A program made the translations under genes and the position numbers. A stretch of DNA of 64,000 nt from Plicaturopsis crispa FD-325 SS-3 (Eukaryota; Basidiomycota; Agaricomycetes; Amylocorticiales; Amylocorticiaceae). Location of the stretch: the NCBI GenBank assembly GCA_000827205.1, contig KN832559.1:123167-187166 (forward strand), given 5' to 3'. Under the pieces are notes generated by a model that was given only the letters and a program-made list of their open reading frames with translations, had not been told where the DNA came from and ran no database searches. This document shows positions 510 to 48,670 of this stretch, in pieces. The number at the start of each line of letters is the position of its first letter. Within the stretch, counting starts at the first letter, position 1.

Positions 510-1990
510 CGTGTCTGTAGGTACATAGTAGAGCGTCTCTCATTCGAATATATCATCTTTTCCAACGCCCATCTAAAGCCTACTCTGTCCCAACGAGACC
601 GAGCACGGGCACCGGGCGAACTTACACTCTACAGCCTTCCTTCTACTTCCGCAGACCTTGGCGGCGTTCGCGTCGCTCCTCTCAGACTCCCGCTCCGCAA
701 CCACTTCACGCAAGCTCACGGTGCAGCCGGGGCTTACATCTCGACCTAGTCTCACGGTAGAGCCGGAGACGTTCGACGCGGCGAGATCGCGTAGCACACC
801 ATAGCAACGGGACCAGGTACTCTCTCGTCAGGATCCTTCGACTGACCGTCTTAATCCCAGATCTGTAGCGAGGGCGTCCCAGCTCCGTTACACATAGGCC
901 CTCTAGAGGTGTATTGAATGGTATCTACAACACAAATTTTGAGAGAAACAACTTTCTCGGTGTGCAATTGCGGAAACGAGTTTTCAGTGTATCACGGGCC
1001 GGTGGATAACTGTACATTGGGTCCGGTGTATTTCAGGCGCCTCAGATAAGTCGAAGGTACGCAGATCTTACAAACAGACAGTGCGACAGCAGGAAAACAA
1101 GACTCACAAGAAAGGATTGAGAAAGACTTGGCCACAGAGAGGACATGTAAGCGAACAAGGTGGGGGCTACACGTACTGCGGTGAGCGGCAAAAAGATAGG
1201 CGGAGAAGACTTCATTTGGAAAGCACCGTGGGTGAGACGGCGGACCCGGACGGCTTGTCGTCCGAGAGAACGAGCCGCATCTTAGCTCTCTGTTGGCTTG
1301 CACGTACCGAATTCATCATCATCATCCGAGAGAACAAGGGGATCTGTGGGGGTCAGACCCGACATTGAAGGCTTAAGAGTGAGACGGGTAGTTTTGGGAA
1401 TGGGGGGCCGAAAGTAATATTGGGGAAGACCGACGGGTCAGGGCACAACGATAAGACTGTAGGCAATGCGACAGTGGGGACAGGGATACATGTTCCAATG
1501 GGCGACATTTGTGCGGATCTCGGAACTTGACTGAGGGCTGACCAAGCAAGGTTCATGCCGGCGCGGGCGACGGCCCCTAGTATCACCTCCTACCTCTATT
1601 TACTCATACTTCTTAATCTGCTACACTTCCTACTACATATATACTATGCTTACCATGCTCACGGATGGTTCTAGAAGTAGCACCTACTCGGTCAGAGAAT
1701 TCACATTCCAAAAAGTTTGAAAACCTGGCCTTTGGGCGTACTTTGGAGCAAGCCCCTTCTGCGAAGGTTCGCCGGCGGGCTGGCGCGGAGCAGGGGCTTG
1801 TTCCGAACCTATCGAAATCGAGGCGACGCCAGCTTGCAAACAGCAATAATTTGCAGGAAACACTAATTCAAGCCATGGTATACAATGGTGCATTCATACA
1901 TAAAGAATGGGCAAAATCATCGGGATGTCAATGTTCTCCCACTATATCTGTTCATCAGTAAACATATCAGTCCTGGAGACTACAGACACG
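510..1990. other. intergenic, no gene recognised
   Basis: About 1.5 kb without a convincing coding frame on either strand. Several short ORFs exist, but none has a recognisable motif or consistent splice signals. The right part (up to 1990) is the 3' flank of ARPC2, which is read leftward, and contains the strong inverted repeat described separately. Confidence 0.6.
1744..1806. repeat. inverted repeat / hairpin in the ARPC2 3' flank
   Basis: The left arm starts at 1745 (GGAGCAAGCCCCTTCTGCG) and the right arm ends near 1804 (GCAGGGGCTTGTTCC). They pair over about 19-20 bases with a few mismatches around a GC-rich loop. It lies about 190 bases beyond the ARPC2 stop codon, on the downstream side. 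It could be a transcript 3' structure or a remnant of an inverted repeat; the sequence alone does not decide. Confidence 0.5.
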
Positions 1991-37496: not shown

Positions 37497-39762
37497 ATGA
37501 CGAGCGCCGTCGCCCACCTCCTCGCGCAGACAAAGGCAAACATCGACTTCCTCGCTCAACACGGCCACATCTCCCGCCCAGACGCTGACCTCATCCGCTC
37601 AAAACTAGACGCTGCAGACCTCGCAGCGTCCACACAGCGCCTCCTCCTCCTCGACACCCCCTCCTCCCCTCCCCCTGCCTCCACTGCCCCCTCCTCTTCG
37701 ACCACACCCGGTCAGTTCCAGGCGCGGGCGCTGTGGGACTACAGCGCCGACCCGACCGACCTCGCGTTCCGCGCGGGCGACGTCATCACCGTCGTAGCAG
37801 AGACCAACGCGGACTGGTGGACCGGCGAGCACGGAGGACGGCGCGGCCTCTTTCCCAGTAACTACGTCGAGCGCATCGCTGCTTCCGTGCCTGCGTCCCG
37901 TGCGCCGTCGCAGGCGCCGTCGTACAGCGCAGGCGGGTATAACCCGTACCCGGGCGCTCCTGGGGTGGCTATGCCCCAGGCTGGGCAATATGGGGAGAAG
38001 TACGGGCCTCCGCAGGGGTATCAGTCGCCGCCGCCGCAGGGGTATCAGTCGCCGCCACCCCAGTCTTACGGCGGGCCCCCGCCTCAATCGTACGGTGGGC
38101 CGCCTCCTCAATCATACAGCGGACCCCCTCCTCAACAGTACGGCGGACCTCCTCCGCAGCAGTACGGCCCTCCGCAGCCGTACCAGTCCCCTCCTCCTCC
38201 TCCTCCTCAACAGCAGCAGCAGCAACAGCCGGAGAAGAAGAAGAAGTTTGGCGGGCTTGGGAATACGGTAAGTGTGCTTGCTTTTCGTGTCTACCTTCGC
38301 TCTCCTTTTGTGCGTTTGCCTGTCCTCTCGTGTGCTTGCCGTCCATGCATACTTTATTCCCGTCTTGTCGGCTCCTGCTACCATACGTCCCGTGTCTTCC
38401 GTGCACCGCCCATGCCCTTTACTCTCTCCATTGCATAAGCGCTCGCCCGCACCCCACCCCCATCCCGCCCCGCTCGACCTCCCATCGTCCTGTATATCTG
38501 CCAAGCATCCGCCCCGCGTCATTGCCAAGCATCCGCCCCGCATCGTTGCCGTGTGGTTGTTCTGCGTATGTACAGTGATGGCGTCGGGCAAGCCGGCGAG
38601 GACTGGGTGAGGACAGTGTAGTGTGTGGGCGAGGACGAGACTGGCGTTATGTCTGGGCAAGAACAGCGCCGCTGCTGTCTTGCTAGCACATCACACGGAT
38701 CCCCACCCCCTTCCCCCTCCTCCGTCGCTCTCTCCCCCCCCTCCTCCCCACCCCCTTTACCCACTCTCTCCTCCGTCCCGCAAATACTAACCCCCTCCCA
38801 CAGCTCGCCCAAAGCGCAGTCGGCGGCGCGGGCTTCGGTGCTGGTGAGTCTCGTTCAGTTCCTTCCTCCCTCTTGCTGTTGGGTCCCTTCATCTTCTTGT
38901 CGTTCTGTCTCTCGCGTACTCGCCGTGCCGTCCCTATCTCTTCCTTATACCGCCCCGTTCCCATCCTCCTTCCCGCGGCGTGTCGTCCTCGGGGCGCACT
39001 CCATGCGTACATGCCCTCCTCCACACAAACACTAGTTCAGGCTCCCGCTACATCTACTTTAACGCGCCAANNNNNNNNNNNNNNNNNNNNNNNNNNNNNN
39101 NNNNNNNNNNNNNNNNNNNNNNNNNNNNNNNNNNNNNNNNNNNNNNNNNNNNNNNNNNNNNNNNNNNNNNNNNNNNNNNNNNNNNNNNNNNNNNNNNNNN
39201 NNNNNNNNNNNNNNNNNNNNNNNNNNNNNNNNNNNNNNNNNNNNNNNNNNNNNNNNNNNNNNNNNNNNNNNNNNNNNNNNNNNNNNNNNNNNNNNNNNNN
39301 NNNNNNNNNNNNNNNNNNNNNNNNNNNNNNNNNNNNNNNNNNNNNNNNNNNNNNNNNNNNNNNNNNNNNNNNNNNNNNNNNNNNNNNNNNNNNNNNNNNN
39401 NNNNNNNNNNNNNNNNNNNNNNNNNNNNNNNNNNNNNNNNNNNNNNNNNNNNNNNNNNNNNNNNNNNNNNNNNNNNNNNNNNNNNNNNNNNNNNNNNNNN
39501 NNNNNNNNNNNNNNNNNNNNNNNNNNNNNNNNNNNNNNNNNNNNNNNNNNNNNNNNNNNNNNNNNNNNNNNNNNNNNNNNNNNNNNNNNNNNNNNNNNNN
39601 NNNNNNNNNNNNNNNNNNNNNNNNNNNNNNNNNNNNNNNNNNNNNNNNNNNNNNNNNNNNNNNNNNNNNNNNNNNNNNNAACCAACCCGCGAACCCACAA
39701 AACTGACACACACACACACAGGCTCCGCGGTCGGCAGCAACCTCATCAACGCGATCTTCTAG
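37497..39762 (+). CDS. SH3-domain protein with Pro/Tyr/Gly-rich linker (paralogue 1)
   Basis: SH3 proteins of this form (Lsb1/Pin3-like in yeast) bind proline-rich ligands at actin patches. Exons 37497-38267, 38804-38843 and 39722-39762 sum to 284 codons. The N terminus is helical (MTSAVAHLLAQTKANIDFLA). The SH3 domain at about residues 75-130 has ARALWDYSADPTDLAF, DVITVVAETNADWW and GLFPSNYVERI. Then come repeated PPPQSYGG units and a Gln run. A conserved glycine-rich C terminus is split over three exons: KKFGGLGNTLAQSAVGG, AGFGAG and SNLINAIF. The last intron contains the N gap, so its length is unknown. A second copy of the gene lies at 47,673-48,670. Confidence 0.85.
39071..39679. other. 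assembly gap (run of N)
   Basis: A run of 609 N. It lies inside the last intron of the SH3 paralogue-1 gene and is followed by a CA repeat just before the acceptor. Nothing can be said about its content. Confidence 1.
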
Positions 39763-41837: not shown

Positions 41838-44137
41838 CTACGCGCCCGACTTCCAGTAGGCAATGTCGCCGTCGACCACTGCCCACGCGAGCGCCCATCA
41901 GCTCAACCCTTCACGGAACAAAATAAAAACACTCACTCTCGTACGGCTTGCCCTGCTGGCGCAGCTTCCCCGCAGCCTTCACCGCGTTCTCGCTTCCGTG
42001 TTCCTTCAAGTCCTCGTAGCTCATGATCTCACCGCACACAAACTTGTTCTCAAAGTCCGAGCTGCAAATGCCGTGTCAGCGCATAGATGATAGCGACGGA
42101 AGGGACAAGAGGGAGGGAACGTGACGTACTGGATAACACCCGCCGCCTGCGGAGCCTTCGTGCCTTTCCGTATCGTCCACGCGCGCACTTCGACGGGTCC
42201 ACACGTGAAGTAGCGAATCAACTGTGAGTAGTCCCAATCAGGACACACGCCCATATACAAGCGCCACCCAGTACAGGGGCAAAATGAACACCCACATCCA
42301 GCGACGCGTATCCCGCTTGTGTGATCTTGCCTAGGGCACTCGTGGCGCCCGCGGCCTTTTCCTCCTCCACGCGCTCCGCGTCCGATAGCGGAGCGAGGCG
42401 CTCCTCTAGCGCGACGGAGAAGGGGATCAGCGGGTCGCCCGGGTTGTTCTCGTCGATCCACGCCTTGATTTTCGCGAGCCTGCATCAAGCGCAGTGGTTA
42501 TCGTCAGCAACAGTGTCAACGGGCACGGGAGGGGGCGGGGCGCACCATTTGTTCTTCTTGCGGACGTAGTCCTTCTCGGAGAGGTTGACGAGGTAGGTAA
42601 CGGGCTTCGCGGTGAGGAGCGAGAGGCTGTTGACCACGTCGATCTATGGCAGGGCGTGACAGTCAGCTCAACTCGACAGACTCGTAGATGGAACGGGGTA
42701 GGAGTGAAGAGGGGGGTGATGTGATGTGAATCAGAAAAAGTGTGATCTCAAAGGAATAAATGGGGCGTTACTCCCTCCTCAACGAGCTGGGTTATCGAGC
42801 GTACTGCTCTTTATCGTCATGAAAGTAAAAGTGAAGCCACCCCGACCGAGCAATTTGGATTTACCTGTGAATACGAGTAAAGTCAGCAAGCGTGCTGGAG
42901 CGGATAAAGAGGATTGAGAAGGGTCAGAATATAAATTGATAGCATAGGCATAATGGGGCGTTACTCCCGCCTCAACGAGCTGGGTTATCGAGCGTATAGC
43001 TCTTTTTCATCACGAAAGCCAAACATGAAAGTTTGATAATCACCTGTGAAAACGGGGCAAGTCAGCGTTGTGATTCAATCAGCATACAAGATAGTCGTGG
43101 AGAAATTGAGGGGTCAGAATATAGGTTGATAGCATTGGCATACTTGGGGCGTTACTCCCGCCTCAACGAGCTGGGTTATCGAGCATACTGCTCTTTTTCA
43201 TCATACCAGCCATCGGAGCAAACAAAAAATAGAATACAAAATGAAAAATTCGCACCTCTTTGTTATTCCAATCCGCCTTGCGTACGTCCTTCCCATCCAC
43301 CGCCATAGTCTTGAGGATTTTCTCGACTGTGGCGATTTCCTCCTTCCGCGCGCGGTCAGCGAGGCTGTTCGAGCCCAAGCTCCTGCTAGTCTTCTTGAGC
43401 GTCTCGAGCTGCTTCTCCGTCCACTCGATGTCCTTCAGGCGCAGCTCCGTCTGTATGATCTCCATGTCGCGTATGGGGTTCACGTCACCCTCGACGTGGA
43501 TGACCTCCGCGTCGTCAAATGCACGGATGACCTGGAAAATACCGTCGACCGCGCGCACATGTGACAGGAACGCGTTGCCGAGGCCCGCACCGGTGGAAGC
43601 GCCCTAAGGTGGAAAAACTATGCATTAGATTGCAGCTTCGGCGAAGCGATGCGTAGAGCGTACAGCCGTGAGACCGGCAATGTCGATGCACGTGAGGAAT
43701 GCGGGTATGCGGGTAGTGGGTTTATATGTCTCGCAAAGCCACTCAAAGCGGGCGTCCGGGACGGGTATGCGCGCTTCCTGTCAACGGCGGCGCGTTAAAA
43801 GGCGGGTAGCCGTGCACAGACGCGAGCACCAACCTCAGGGTTAATGGTAGCGTACGGGAAGTTCGCGGCTTTCCCGAGATCTAATTTTTTTTCGCAATCA
43901 GCTTCCTCAGTTCATGCGTACGTATGACGAGATTACTGCGCACCGGTTTTGGATAGGGCGTTAAAGAACGACGATTTTCCTACATTTGGAAGACCTGTCG
44001 CGCCGCCGAAAAGTGAGGATGCAAAGATCAGTGTTCGCGGTGCAACTGACCAGACCTACGATGCCGATCTTCAAGTTGTTTGAGGGGCGACCGAGGAGGG
44101 TCTTCTTCTCCTGCGCGGGGGCCTTCTTGGGGGGCAT
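41838..44137 (-). CDS. OLA1: Obg-like ATPase 1 (YchF family)
   Basis: A TRAFAC P-loop ATPase of the YchF subfamily that binds ribosomes and acts in stress responses. Minus-strand exons read [20 protein letters not shown], the P-loop [31 protein letters not shown], the Walker B-like [12 protein letters not shown], a coiled coil ([18 protein letters not shown]), then [20 protein letters not shown]. The NLSE motif in place of NKxD explains the ATP preference. The C-terminal TGS-like domain has [38 protein letters not shown] and AYWKSGA. The ATG at 44135-44137 gives the conserved MPPKK start. The intron at 42644-43255 is unusual and listed separately. An intron also splits the P-loop region right after KIGIV. 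Confidence 0.93.
42644..43255 (-). repeat. triplicated intron units inside OLA1
   Basis: Read on the minus strand this 612-nt intron is three units: 43255-43044 (212 nt), 43043-42865 (179 nt) and 42864-42644 (221 nt). Each begins with GT (GTGCGAA, GTGATTA, GTAAATC), ends with AG (TTTTCACAG, ATTCACAG, GCCATAG) and has GCTGACT upstream of its end. All share a core containing AAAGAGC, GCTCGATAACCCAGCTCG, TTGAGG and GGGAGTAACGCCCCA. The flanks differ more than the core. The core can form short stems (GAGC with GCTC; GGCG with CGCC). At both internal joints the acceptor directly touches the next donor (CACAG then GT). Confidence 0.85.
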
Positions 44138-44512
44138 TCTCTTTTTATGTCGGGGGGTAGTCGAGGAGAAAAGTCGGGCAGCAGCGAAAGGGAATGAAAG
44201 ATGGGGAGCAGGAGGATGGACGGGATGGGCCCGGATTAATCGATCGAATAGCATATCCACGCAAAAAAATAAAATAAAATAAAGGAAAGGAAAGGCAAAG
44301 AGGGAGACGGTTAAATAAGGGGTATTGTTCCCACGGTACACATGGCGGCCGCGTATTTAATAAATTATTTTGGGACCGAATATTTTAGTCGGCCAATCGG
44401 GGCGCGCGAGGTCTGAGTGAACGATCCCAACAACGACGACGGCGACGACCAACTCCTGTAAAACTAATACCACCACTACCACCCCTCCTCCTTGCGTTCT
44501 TTTTTGGTTCAG
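44138..44512. promoter_or_regulatory. divergent promoter, OLA1 / small secreted protein
   Basis: 375 bases between divergent starts. It includes an AT-rich segment with AAATAAAATAAAATAAAGG near 44,265-44,290 and TATTTAATAAATTATTTTGG near 44,355, the only clearly TATA-like stretch here. No factor sites were recognised. Confidence 0.45.
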
Positions 44513-47672: not shown

Positions 47673-48670
47673 ATGGCCGATGCGCGTACACCAGCATTGC
47701 TAGCCCATGTCCTCTCCCAGATGCAGGCCAACCTCGACTTTCTCCTCCGTGAGGGTTATATCGCCCCTGACGATGCCAATGCAATCTCCGAGCGCTTGAG
47801 CGCTGTATCCGTTGACGGTTCCAACGCCACCTCGCGCGCCAACTCCGTAGGCAGGCGGAGTATGCCGTCGCCAGCGATCCCCGTCCAAGCCCCCGCCCAG
47901 ATGCAAGCGCGTGCGATATGGGGGTACAATGAAGATGGACATGTACGTGAACAACTAAGCACACCCCTTACCGCGATCCAAACTTTCATTAGGACCCTGC
48001 GGACCTGTCGTTCCCCGCAGACGCGTTAATCACTGTTGTGGCTGAAGTAAACGCCGATTGGTGGCGAGGCAGTTACAATGGTCGCGAGGCTCTCTTCCCC
48101 TCCGCGTACGTTGAGCGCGTCGCCGTTTCAATGCCGACAGCGAGCTCTCCTGCAAATAATGCCCCTGTAACTGCGCGCCGACTTCCCCCTGCGTCCACTG
48201 GGACCAAGAAACCCTACAAGCCGTTCGGTGCGGCATTGCATGGCACTGATCTCCCTCCTACGTCTCCGCCCCCGCAGACGCAGCAGGTGCCTTATTTCTT
48301 CTCCTCCTCGTTTGCACAAGCGTGCTGACTCCCCATACAGGTCCAAGCAGCACCAGTAAACTCGGTTGGGTTGCAGGAAGACCCCGGCCAGGCGCAGAAG
48401 AAGAGCAAGTTCGGCAAATATGGGAACACCATGGCGCATAGCGCTGCCGGAGGAGTAGGATTCGGTGCTGGTGCGTTTTCGTTTCTCGGATATTGTTTGT
48501 GCCCGCGGCCGTTGCGTATCGGATTACGGTGGCTCGATGCGGGCAGGGGAATGCCGCAGGGGTCCTCTCGCTGTATTCGATAACTCGTCTACTTCTGTTG
48601 TCGTCGAAACTGACGCTTCCTCCTTGCAGGGGCTGCGATTGGTGGTGGTCTCGTTCGTGCTATCTTCTAA
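47673..48670 (+). CDS. SH3-domain protein (paralogue 2)
   Basis: Same architecture as the gene at 37,497: helical start (TPALLAHVLSQMQANLDFLL), an SH3 domain with MQARAIWGYNED, DPADLSFPADALITVVAE, VNADWWRGSYNG and ALFPSAYVERV, a shorter Pro/Ser linker, and the conserved C terminus (SKFGKYGNTMAHSAAGG, VGFGAG, then GGGLVRAIF). The intron before the last exon falls after FGAG exactly as in paralogue 1, so the duplication kept the gene structure. The linker lacks the PPPQSYGG repeats. An intron splits the SH3 domain after YNEDGH. Confidence 0.84.

Follow-up and report, generated by a model that had tools for sequence, protein, structure and literature searches.

A 612-nt intron in the OLA1 gene of Plicaturopsis crispa is made of three abutting intron-like units, each with a predicted box C/D snoRNA

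The DNA analyzed here is a 64,000-nt stretch of the genome of the basidiomycete Plicaturopsis crispa, herein referred to as the window. It contains on its minus strand, at 41838–44254, the gene for the Obg-like ATPase OLA1 (YchF family), for which a home-made gene finder gave a model with nine introns and a provisional start codon, and for which PDB matches cover part of the protein. One of these introns, of 612 nt (42644–43255, minus strand, phase 0), lies between the sequences ...NNKE and IDVVNS.... The exons that flank it fuse without a gap (NNKE/IDVVNS) and the protein aligns with the YchF/OLA1 chain 1ni3 of the PDB (E = 1.8e-40), which we take to be that of S. pombe, and both results agree with the assignment of the host as OLA1 in an earlier note on this DNA. 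The remaining eight introns of the model are 56–74 nt long, compared with 612 nt here, and the 280 introns predicted in a 200-kb part of this contig have a median length of 56 nt. Twelve introns of at least 150 nt were predicted in the 200 kb, and in the window there are seven besides the 612-nt intron of OLA1; we suspect that many of these predicted long introns are prediction errors. OLA1 is flanked by two predicted proteins on the plus strand (37497–38438 and 47673–48670) with similar N-termini (LLAQTKANIDFLAQHGHISRPDAD and VLSQMQANLDFLLREGYIAPDDAN, respectively), which by eye look like paralogues, and the window also includes a run of 609 N (39071–39679).

Read on the minus strand, the 612-nt intron consists of three units that follow one another directly. 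Unit 1 (43044–43255, 212 nt) has the donor GTGCGA and the acceptor CACAG, unit 2 (42865–43043, 179 nt) has GTGATT and CACAG, and unit 3 (42644–42864, 221 nt) has GTAAAT and CATAG. At inner joint 1 (CACAG/GTGAT, 43039–43048, cut at 43044/43043) and inner joint 2 (CACAG/GTAAA, 42860–42869, cut at 42865/42864), both on the minus strand, the acceptor touches the next donor, leaving an exon of zero length, and each joint is a candidate ratchet point. The motif GCTGACT occurs once near the end of each unit, at 43060–43066, 42881–42887, and 42661–42667 (minus strand), which is 18, 18, and 19 nt from the 3′ ends of units 1, 2, and 3, respectively, and these are the three best branch-site matches of the whole intron. 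Hence what defines abutting introns, namely an acceptor in contact with the following donor and a separate branch site, acceptor, and donor for every unit, is found at OLA1. The coordinates, unit lengths, donors, acceptors, branch sites, and both exonless joints described in the earlier note were all recovered from the sequence, and the intron is an outlier in length both within OLA1 and across the contig.

The quality of these signals was assessed against a reference set drawn from the 280 introns predicted in the 200 kb, of which the 265 of up to 120 nt were kept and the longer ones excluded. The branch sites of all three units are at the 98th percentile and the acceptors of units 1, 2, and 3 are at the 56th, 56th, and 44th percentile, respectively. 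The donors of all units are weak, with the inner two (9.4th percentile for unit 2 and 12.5th for unit 3) close in strength to the outer one (12.5th percentile), and several GTs internal to the intron outscore all three. Neither GTGATT nor GTAAAT, nor the outer GTGCGA, occurs among the 265 reference donors, while GTAAAT occurs once among the 66 predicted donors of the window. Within 264 kb (both strands) there are 11 joints whose branch site and donor are equally good or better, two of which are the OLA1 joints, although the thresholds of this count were taken from those two joints themselves. Five joints of the type CTRAC plus YAG/GT were observed in the window compared with 11.25 expected from a Markov model, so such joints are not rare per se and the argument rests on the presence of two of them at the ends of repeats.

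The repeated part of the units is a 78-nt core that is present three times with spacings of 193 and 191; when one copy is taken as the reference, the other two have 76 and 86% identity to it. The earlier note had described a nearly identical core, better kept than its flanks, that can fold into small stems; the repeat and its better preservation are confirmed, but the stems are not, as the three folds are no better than those of shuffled sequences (z = −1.59, 0.80, and 0.20). The core is instead predicted to be a box C/D snoRNA of the Afu_304/snR69 type, in three copies, and it is this identity that accounts for its conservation. Copy 1 (43114–43204, minus strand, 91 nt) is bounded by ATGATGA as box C and CTGA as box D, with scores of 32.6 bits to Afu_304 (RF01511) and 30.0 bits to snosnR69 (RF00475), and copy 2 (42924–43013, minus strand, 90 nt) is bounded by GTGATGA and CTGA in the same way, with 32.8 and 30.2 bits, all of these being below the gathering scores of 35 bits for Afu_304 and 50 bits for snosnR69. 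Copy 3 (42731–42820, minus strand, 90 nt, from box C ATGACGA to box D CTGA) reaches 36.3 bits to Afu_304, which is above gathering, and 29.3 bits to snosnR69, which is below it. Hence one of three copies passes the Afu_304 cut-off and none that of snosnR69, and copy 3 with Afu_304 is the sole match at gathering level to any Rfam family in the 64-kb window. The Afu_304 match in unit 1 spans the 5′ half only.

In all three copies boxes C, D′ (TTGA), and D are at like places, and the distances from box C to box D (91, 90, and 90 nt) are within the range of about 70–100 nt expected for box C/D snoRNAs. Box C matches RUGAUGA exactly in copies 1 and 2 and is TGACGA, with one deviation, in copy 3. 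That copy (box C at 42814–42820) also differs in its 3′ half while its guide is identical, and it may be weaker or drifting. No terminal stem was evident by eye in any of the copies. The snoRNAs are 51, 30, and 44 nt from the 5′ splice site and 70, 59, and 87 nt from the 3′ splice site in units 1, 2, and 3, respectively; snoRNAs of N. crassa are described as being mostly 41–60 nt from the 5′ splice site (PMC2780460). The boxes and the D′ guide block of the OLA1 copies align with those of Afu_304 and snR69, the guide of a 25S Cm, whereas the 3′ half has diverged from them and three copies occur within one intron. A separate conserved segment, GGCGGGAGTAACGCCCCA, is located after D′ at 43145–43162 and at the equivalent positions of units 2 and 3 (beginning GGAGGG in unit 3). 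This segment appears to resemble, in sense orientation, the 25S rRNA segment GGCGGGAGTAAC.

The putative guide is the ten-base sequence AACCCAGCTC, which in all three copies (43168–43177, 42977–42986, and 42784–42793, minus strand) is identical and precedes D′ with a single G in between. The same guide, as AACCCAGCUC, is present in the consensus of snosnR69. E. coli 23S rRNA contains a single complement of the ten bases, at 2576–2585, and the guide is antisense to the large-subunit rRNA segment GAGCTGGGTT. In box C/D snoRNAs the methylated base is the one paired with the fifth base from D′, and counting from TTGA as D′ this rule selects E. coli C2579, presumably the equivalent of the snR69 site Cm2948 of yeast. 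The predicted target of 2′-O-methylation in 25S rRNA is accordingly worded here as the C of GAGCTGGG, that is, the C in GAGC. For comparison, N. crassa CD27, given as the snR69 counterpart, is reported to guide Cm2906 of 26S (PMC2780460), and a table in another source prints Cm2945 for snR69 (PMC3511168). The pairing by itself is modest evidence, since shuffled cores match 23S over at least 11 nt in 42 of 2000 cases and over at least 10 nt in 161 of 2000; the snoRNA assignment, as a prediction, draws on the family match, the position of the boxes, and the target combined. The target was checked on E. coli 23S because a conserved 25S 20-mer, allowing up to two mismatches, was not found in the P. 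crispa assembly, from which the rDNA may be missing.

How the three snoRNAs leave the transcript depends on the use of the inner splice sites. In one reading all 612 nt would leave in a single reaction, the snoRNAs would be freed as an intronic cluster by an endonuclease and exonucleases, and the inner sites would be relics of duplication. We judge this to be unlikely, although it is the alternative that carries the most weight. The outer splice pair alone restores the OLA1 reading frame, the inner donors lack the +5 G that is present in 247 of the 265 reference donors, and intronic snoRNA clusters are known to exist (PMC11028025). The gene finder, even when zero-length exons were permitted, also selects the single intron (−5.58 nats, compared with −5.22 to −5.62 for each unit and −16.42 for the chain of three), although this choice is to be expected from the fixed cost per intron and so gives no verdict on the mode of splicing. 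On the other hand, intron definition together with a median intron of 56 nt should, we infer, favor the nearest acceptor. More importantly, the units have diverged in a very uneven manner. In the 5′ flanks (counted from +7) and between box D and the branch site, the units are no better matched than shuffled sequences in all six comparisons (z = −1.0 to 0.2), a test that is low-powered on such short T-rich flanks, while the 5′ halves of the snoRNAs (z = 14.3–16.9), their 3′ halves (z = 9.4, 3.7, and 4.2), and the stretches from the branch site to the 3′ splice site (z = 7.7, 3.3, and 3.4) are all conserved. In a simple neutral simulation, the chance that both joints retain a branch site, YAG, and GT in usable form was 0.17, 0.026, 0.0027, and 0.0002 at assumed divergence levels of 10, 20, 30, and 40%, respectively. 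Since the flanks are shuffled-like and yet both inner joints keep a branch site, YAG/GT, and donors of outer-like strength, the inner sites are probably used, and we regard this divergence as the strongest argument from the sequence that they are live, even though gene conversion could also have preserved splice signals at the unit ends.

The reading that we prefer, to which we assign a probability of about 0.7, is that one snoRNA-carrying intron was triplicated in tandem and that the units are spliced out serially with the release of one snoRNA each. In the first step unit 1 would be excised and the upstream exon joined to the GTGATT of unit 2, in the second the excision of unit 2 would expose the GTAAAT of unit 3, and in the third the excision of unit 3 would complete OLA1, such that splicing probably proceeds stepwise from 5′ to 3′ with one snoRNA per lariat. 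Each AG/GT joint would act first as a 3′ splice site and, after the upstream exon has been attached, as the 5′ splice site of the following step. Debranching and trimming would reduce each lariat to a single snoRNA, and the released snoRNA would guide the 2′-O-methylation of the C in GAGC, which we assume to be yeast Cm2948. The zero-length exons would preserve one snoRNA per spliced intron and would leave the OLA1 reading frame unchanged. A reason for keeping the joints is suggested by animals, where intronic snoRNAs are described as predominantly one per intron and where two together can remain joined as a sno-lncRNA (PMC11028025). As for its origin, the intron would have been duplicated exactly, with GT and AG as the limits of the copied segment. 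The duplication could have arisen through a break at the AG with which both the exon (GAG) and the intron (TAG) end, or through a lariat that was reverse-spliced beside its own site.

An origin by tandem duplication is probable, and it differs from the route that has been published for abutting snoRNA introns. For those of ascomycete snoRNA clusters, Luo et al. proposed that separate introns came into contact when the small exons between them were deleted (PMC3596301). We think this improbable for OLA1, where the host is a protein-coding gene whose reading frame is complete at the site, where the paralogy of the three snoRNAs speaks for duplication, and where by eye there is no remnant of an exon at either joint.

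It is slightly less probable again, in our estimation, that the first donor alone is functional and pairs with any of the three acceptors, whereby the inner units would be partly retained in the transcript. This corresponds to the alternative reading that Luo et al. give for their own data (PMC3596301), and the acceptors and branch sites are good in all three units. However, products spliced at the first or second acceptor would need a regenerated donor in order to yield OLA1, and both inner GT donors have been kept near the strength of the outer one.

The earlier note had also considered a mobile introner-like element, and it proposed a search of the rest of the genome for the shared core. 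When the full intron and one core (E up to 10) were used as DNA queries against the 33.2-Mb assembly, the OLA1 copies were the only matches. A 24-nt pattern with up to three mismatches found in the same 33.2 Mb the three OLA1 copies and one stray place (L008, three mismatches), and a search with the RNA family, in which the best 48 of 2418 candidates were scored, found the OLA1 copies and one other place (L013) at 16.8 bits; the same RNA-family search gave matches in six of 14 prokaryote control genomes. Neither stray place matched Rfam at E up to 1. An exact 17-nt match in viral contigs (L016) likewise matched nothing in Rfam up to that E value and was taken as chance. As the genome search scores the best candidates only, the lack of a match is not proof of absence. 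A genome-wide pattern for such arrays, with two CAG/GTR joints separated by about 180 nt plus CTGAC, matched 11 places (3 + 8), including the OLA1 intron, which is no excess over the 11 (9 + 2) of a reversed control; nine of the ten other places were compared with Rfam (L048 was left out), and none gave a match up to E = 1. The occurrence of three related intron-like units together might suggest an introner that landed repeatedly at one place, but with no further convincing copy found in 33.2 Mb by DNA, pattern, or RNA-family searches, and with the best-shared part being the snoRNA rather than the intron ends, we consider this very improbable. Introners and introner-like elements are defined by many near-identical copies at different intron positions, whereas the three convincing copies found in the 33.2-Mb genome are all at OLA1. 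Thus, among the interpretations in the earlier note, stepwise removal gains indirect support from the splice signals having outlived the flanks, from their outer-like strength, and from fungal precedents, and tandem duplication fits, while the mobile introner does not.

The closest of these precedents are the ascomycete snoRNA clusters. Luo et al. (2013) described abutting, or complex, snoRNA introns that are removed stepwise in fungal snoRNA clusters I–III (PMC3596301), and Donovan et al. (2016) described recursive splicing with an exon size of zero together with nested splicing in snoRNA clusters of Candida (PMC5033589), the evidence in these clusters being from ESTs, RT-PCR, or RNA-seq (PMC3596301, PMC5033589). 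As in OLA1, introns with C/D snoRNAs touch without an exon and an acceptor meets the next donor. The clusters as described there have non-coding hosts, different snoRNAs, and an origin by exon loss, and their splicing was observed (PMC3596301, PMC5033589). In contrast, OLA1 is a coding gene of a basidiomycete with three copies of one snoRNA, and its stepwise splicing is inferred from the sequence. The principle of stepwise-spliced abutting snoRNA introns is therefore already published, and what differs at OLA1 is the coding host and the presence of the same guide in three units. Among the matches listed in searches of open-licence literature, none was a protein-coding gene that carries such an array of copies of a single snoRNA.

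Three other systems have some but not all of these properties. Stwintrons are also complex intervening sequences of fungal genes that are removed by consecutive reactions, and in those described from Lipomyces abutting donors permit removal in either one or two steps (PMC8469720, PMC7138796). Stwintrons are nested, with one intron interrupting a splice element of another, whereas the OLA1 units are serial; the donor, branch site, and acceptor are uninterrupted in each unit, and OLA1 is not a stwintron. The ratchet points of Drosophila resemble OLA1 in having AG/GT joints that appear as zero-nucleotide exons, but they are described inside long introns, in contrast to the 612 nt here, and as requiring a cryptic RS-exon (PMC8605326). 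Just two GTs occupy equivalent positions in each of the OLA1 units, GTTGAG and GTAACG, with donor scores of −4.76 and −0.76, respectively. Finally, SNORD115 and SNORD116 have the non-coding host SNHG14, in which exons separate the introns. They are like OLA1 in that consecutive introns each yield a copy of one kind of snoRNA (PMC11608373).

If the inner sites of OLA1 are used, this would be a case of recursive splicing in a short-intron fungus and in a protein-coding gene that has an evident reason, namely one snoRNA per lariat, and tandem duplication of introns would be a route to a higher snoRNA copy number. We tentatively extend this to the possibility, which is doubtful at present, that the OLA1 intron position is a modular dispenser of snoRNAs, where exact duplications, which may have come about by reverse splicing of a snoRNA lariat next to its site of origin, add snoRNAs and selection maintains the AG/GT joints so that there is one lariat per copy. 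If this were true, snoRNA dosage could rise with no new exons or promoters and no change in the protein, and recursive splicing would enforce the rule that an intron holds a single snoRNA. With a length of 612 nt the intron is a compact test case in which the joints are separately mutable and the readouts are mRNA and rRNA methylation.

Other candidate snoRNAs of the same genome, considered as comparators, all score below their Rfam cut-offs. A U14-like candidate (23.2 bits, cut-off 64) was judged weak and was not used for comparison, and SNORD27 gave no match at E up to 1. At one locus (L037, G000:C4 near 429129) candidates for snR61 (1142–1238, minus strand, 40.5 bits) and snR55 (1487–1577, plus strand, 33.1 bits), both below the Rfam cut-off, are divergently oriented with candidate splice sites around each of them, while in other fungi snR57, snR55, and snR61 are found in one polycistron. 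The candidate splice sites around snR55 are ATG/GTGAGT at 1473, with a score of 8.6, and TTCAG at 1650. A further donor with a score above 5 follows at 1669 (6.0), so that, judged from the site scores rather than from a gene model, the introns at the snR55 candidate seem to have a short exon between them. A U24-like candidate (L014 1501–1578, G000:C3:415145–415222, minus strand) has 32.1 bits compared with a cut-off of 41, and it is located upstream of the RACK1 gene on the opposite strand. The U24 of budding yeast is in an intron of ASC1, the RACK1 gene of that organism. The best PDB match of the RACK1 of this genome is Gib2 (526 bits), which we take to be that of Cryptococcus and which suggests a basidiomycete, and it is followed by two chains with 505 and 499 bits that are presumably from ascomycetes.
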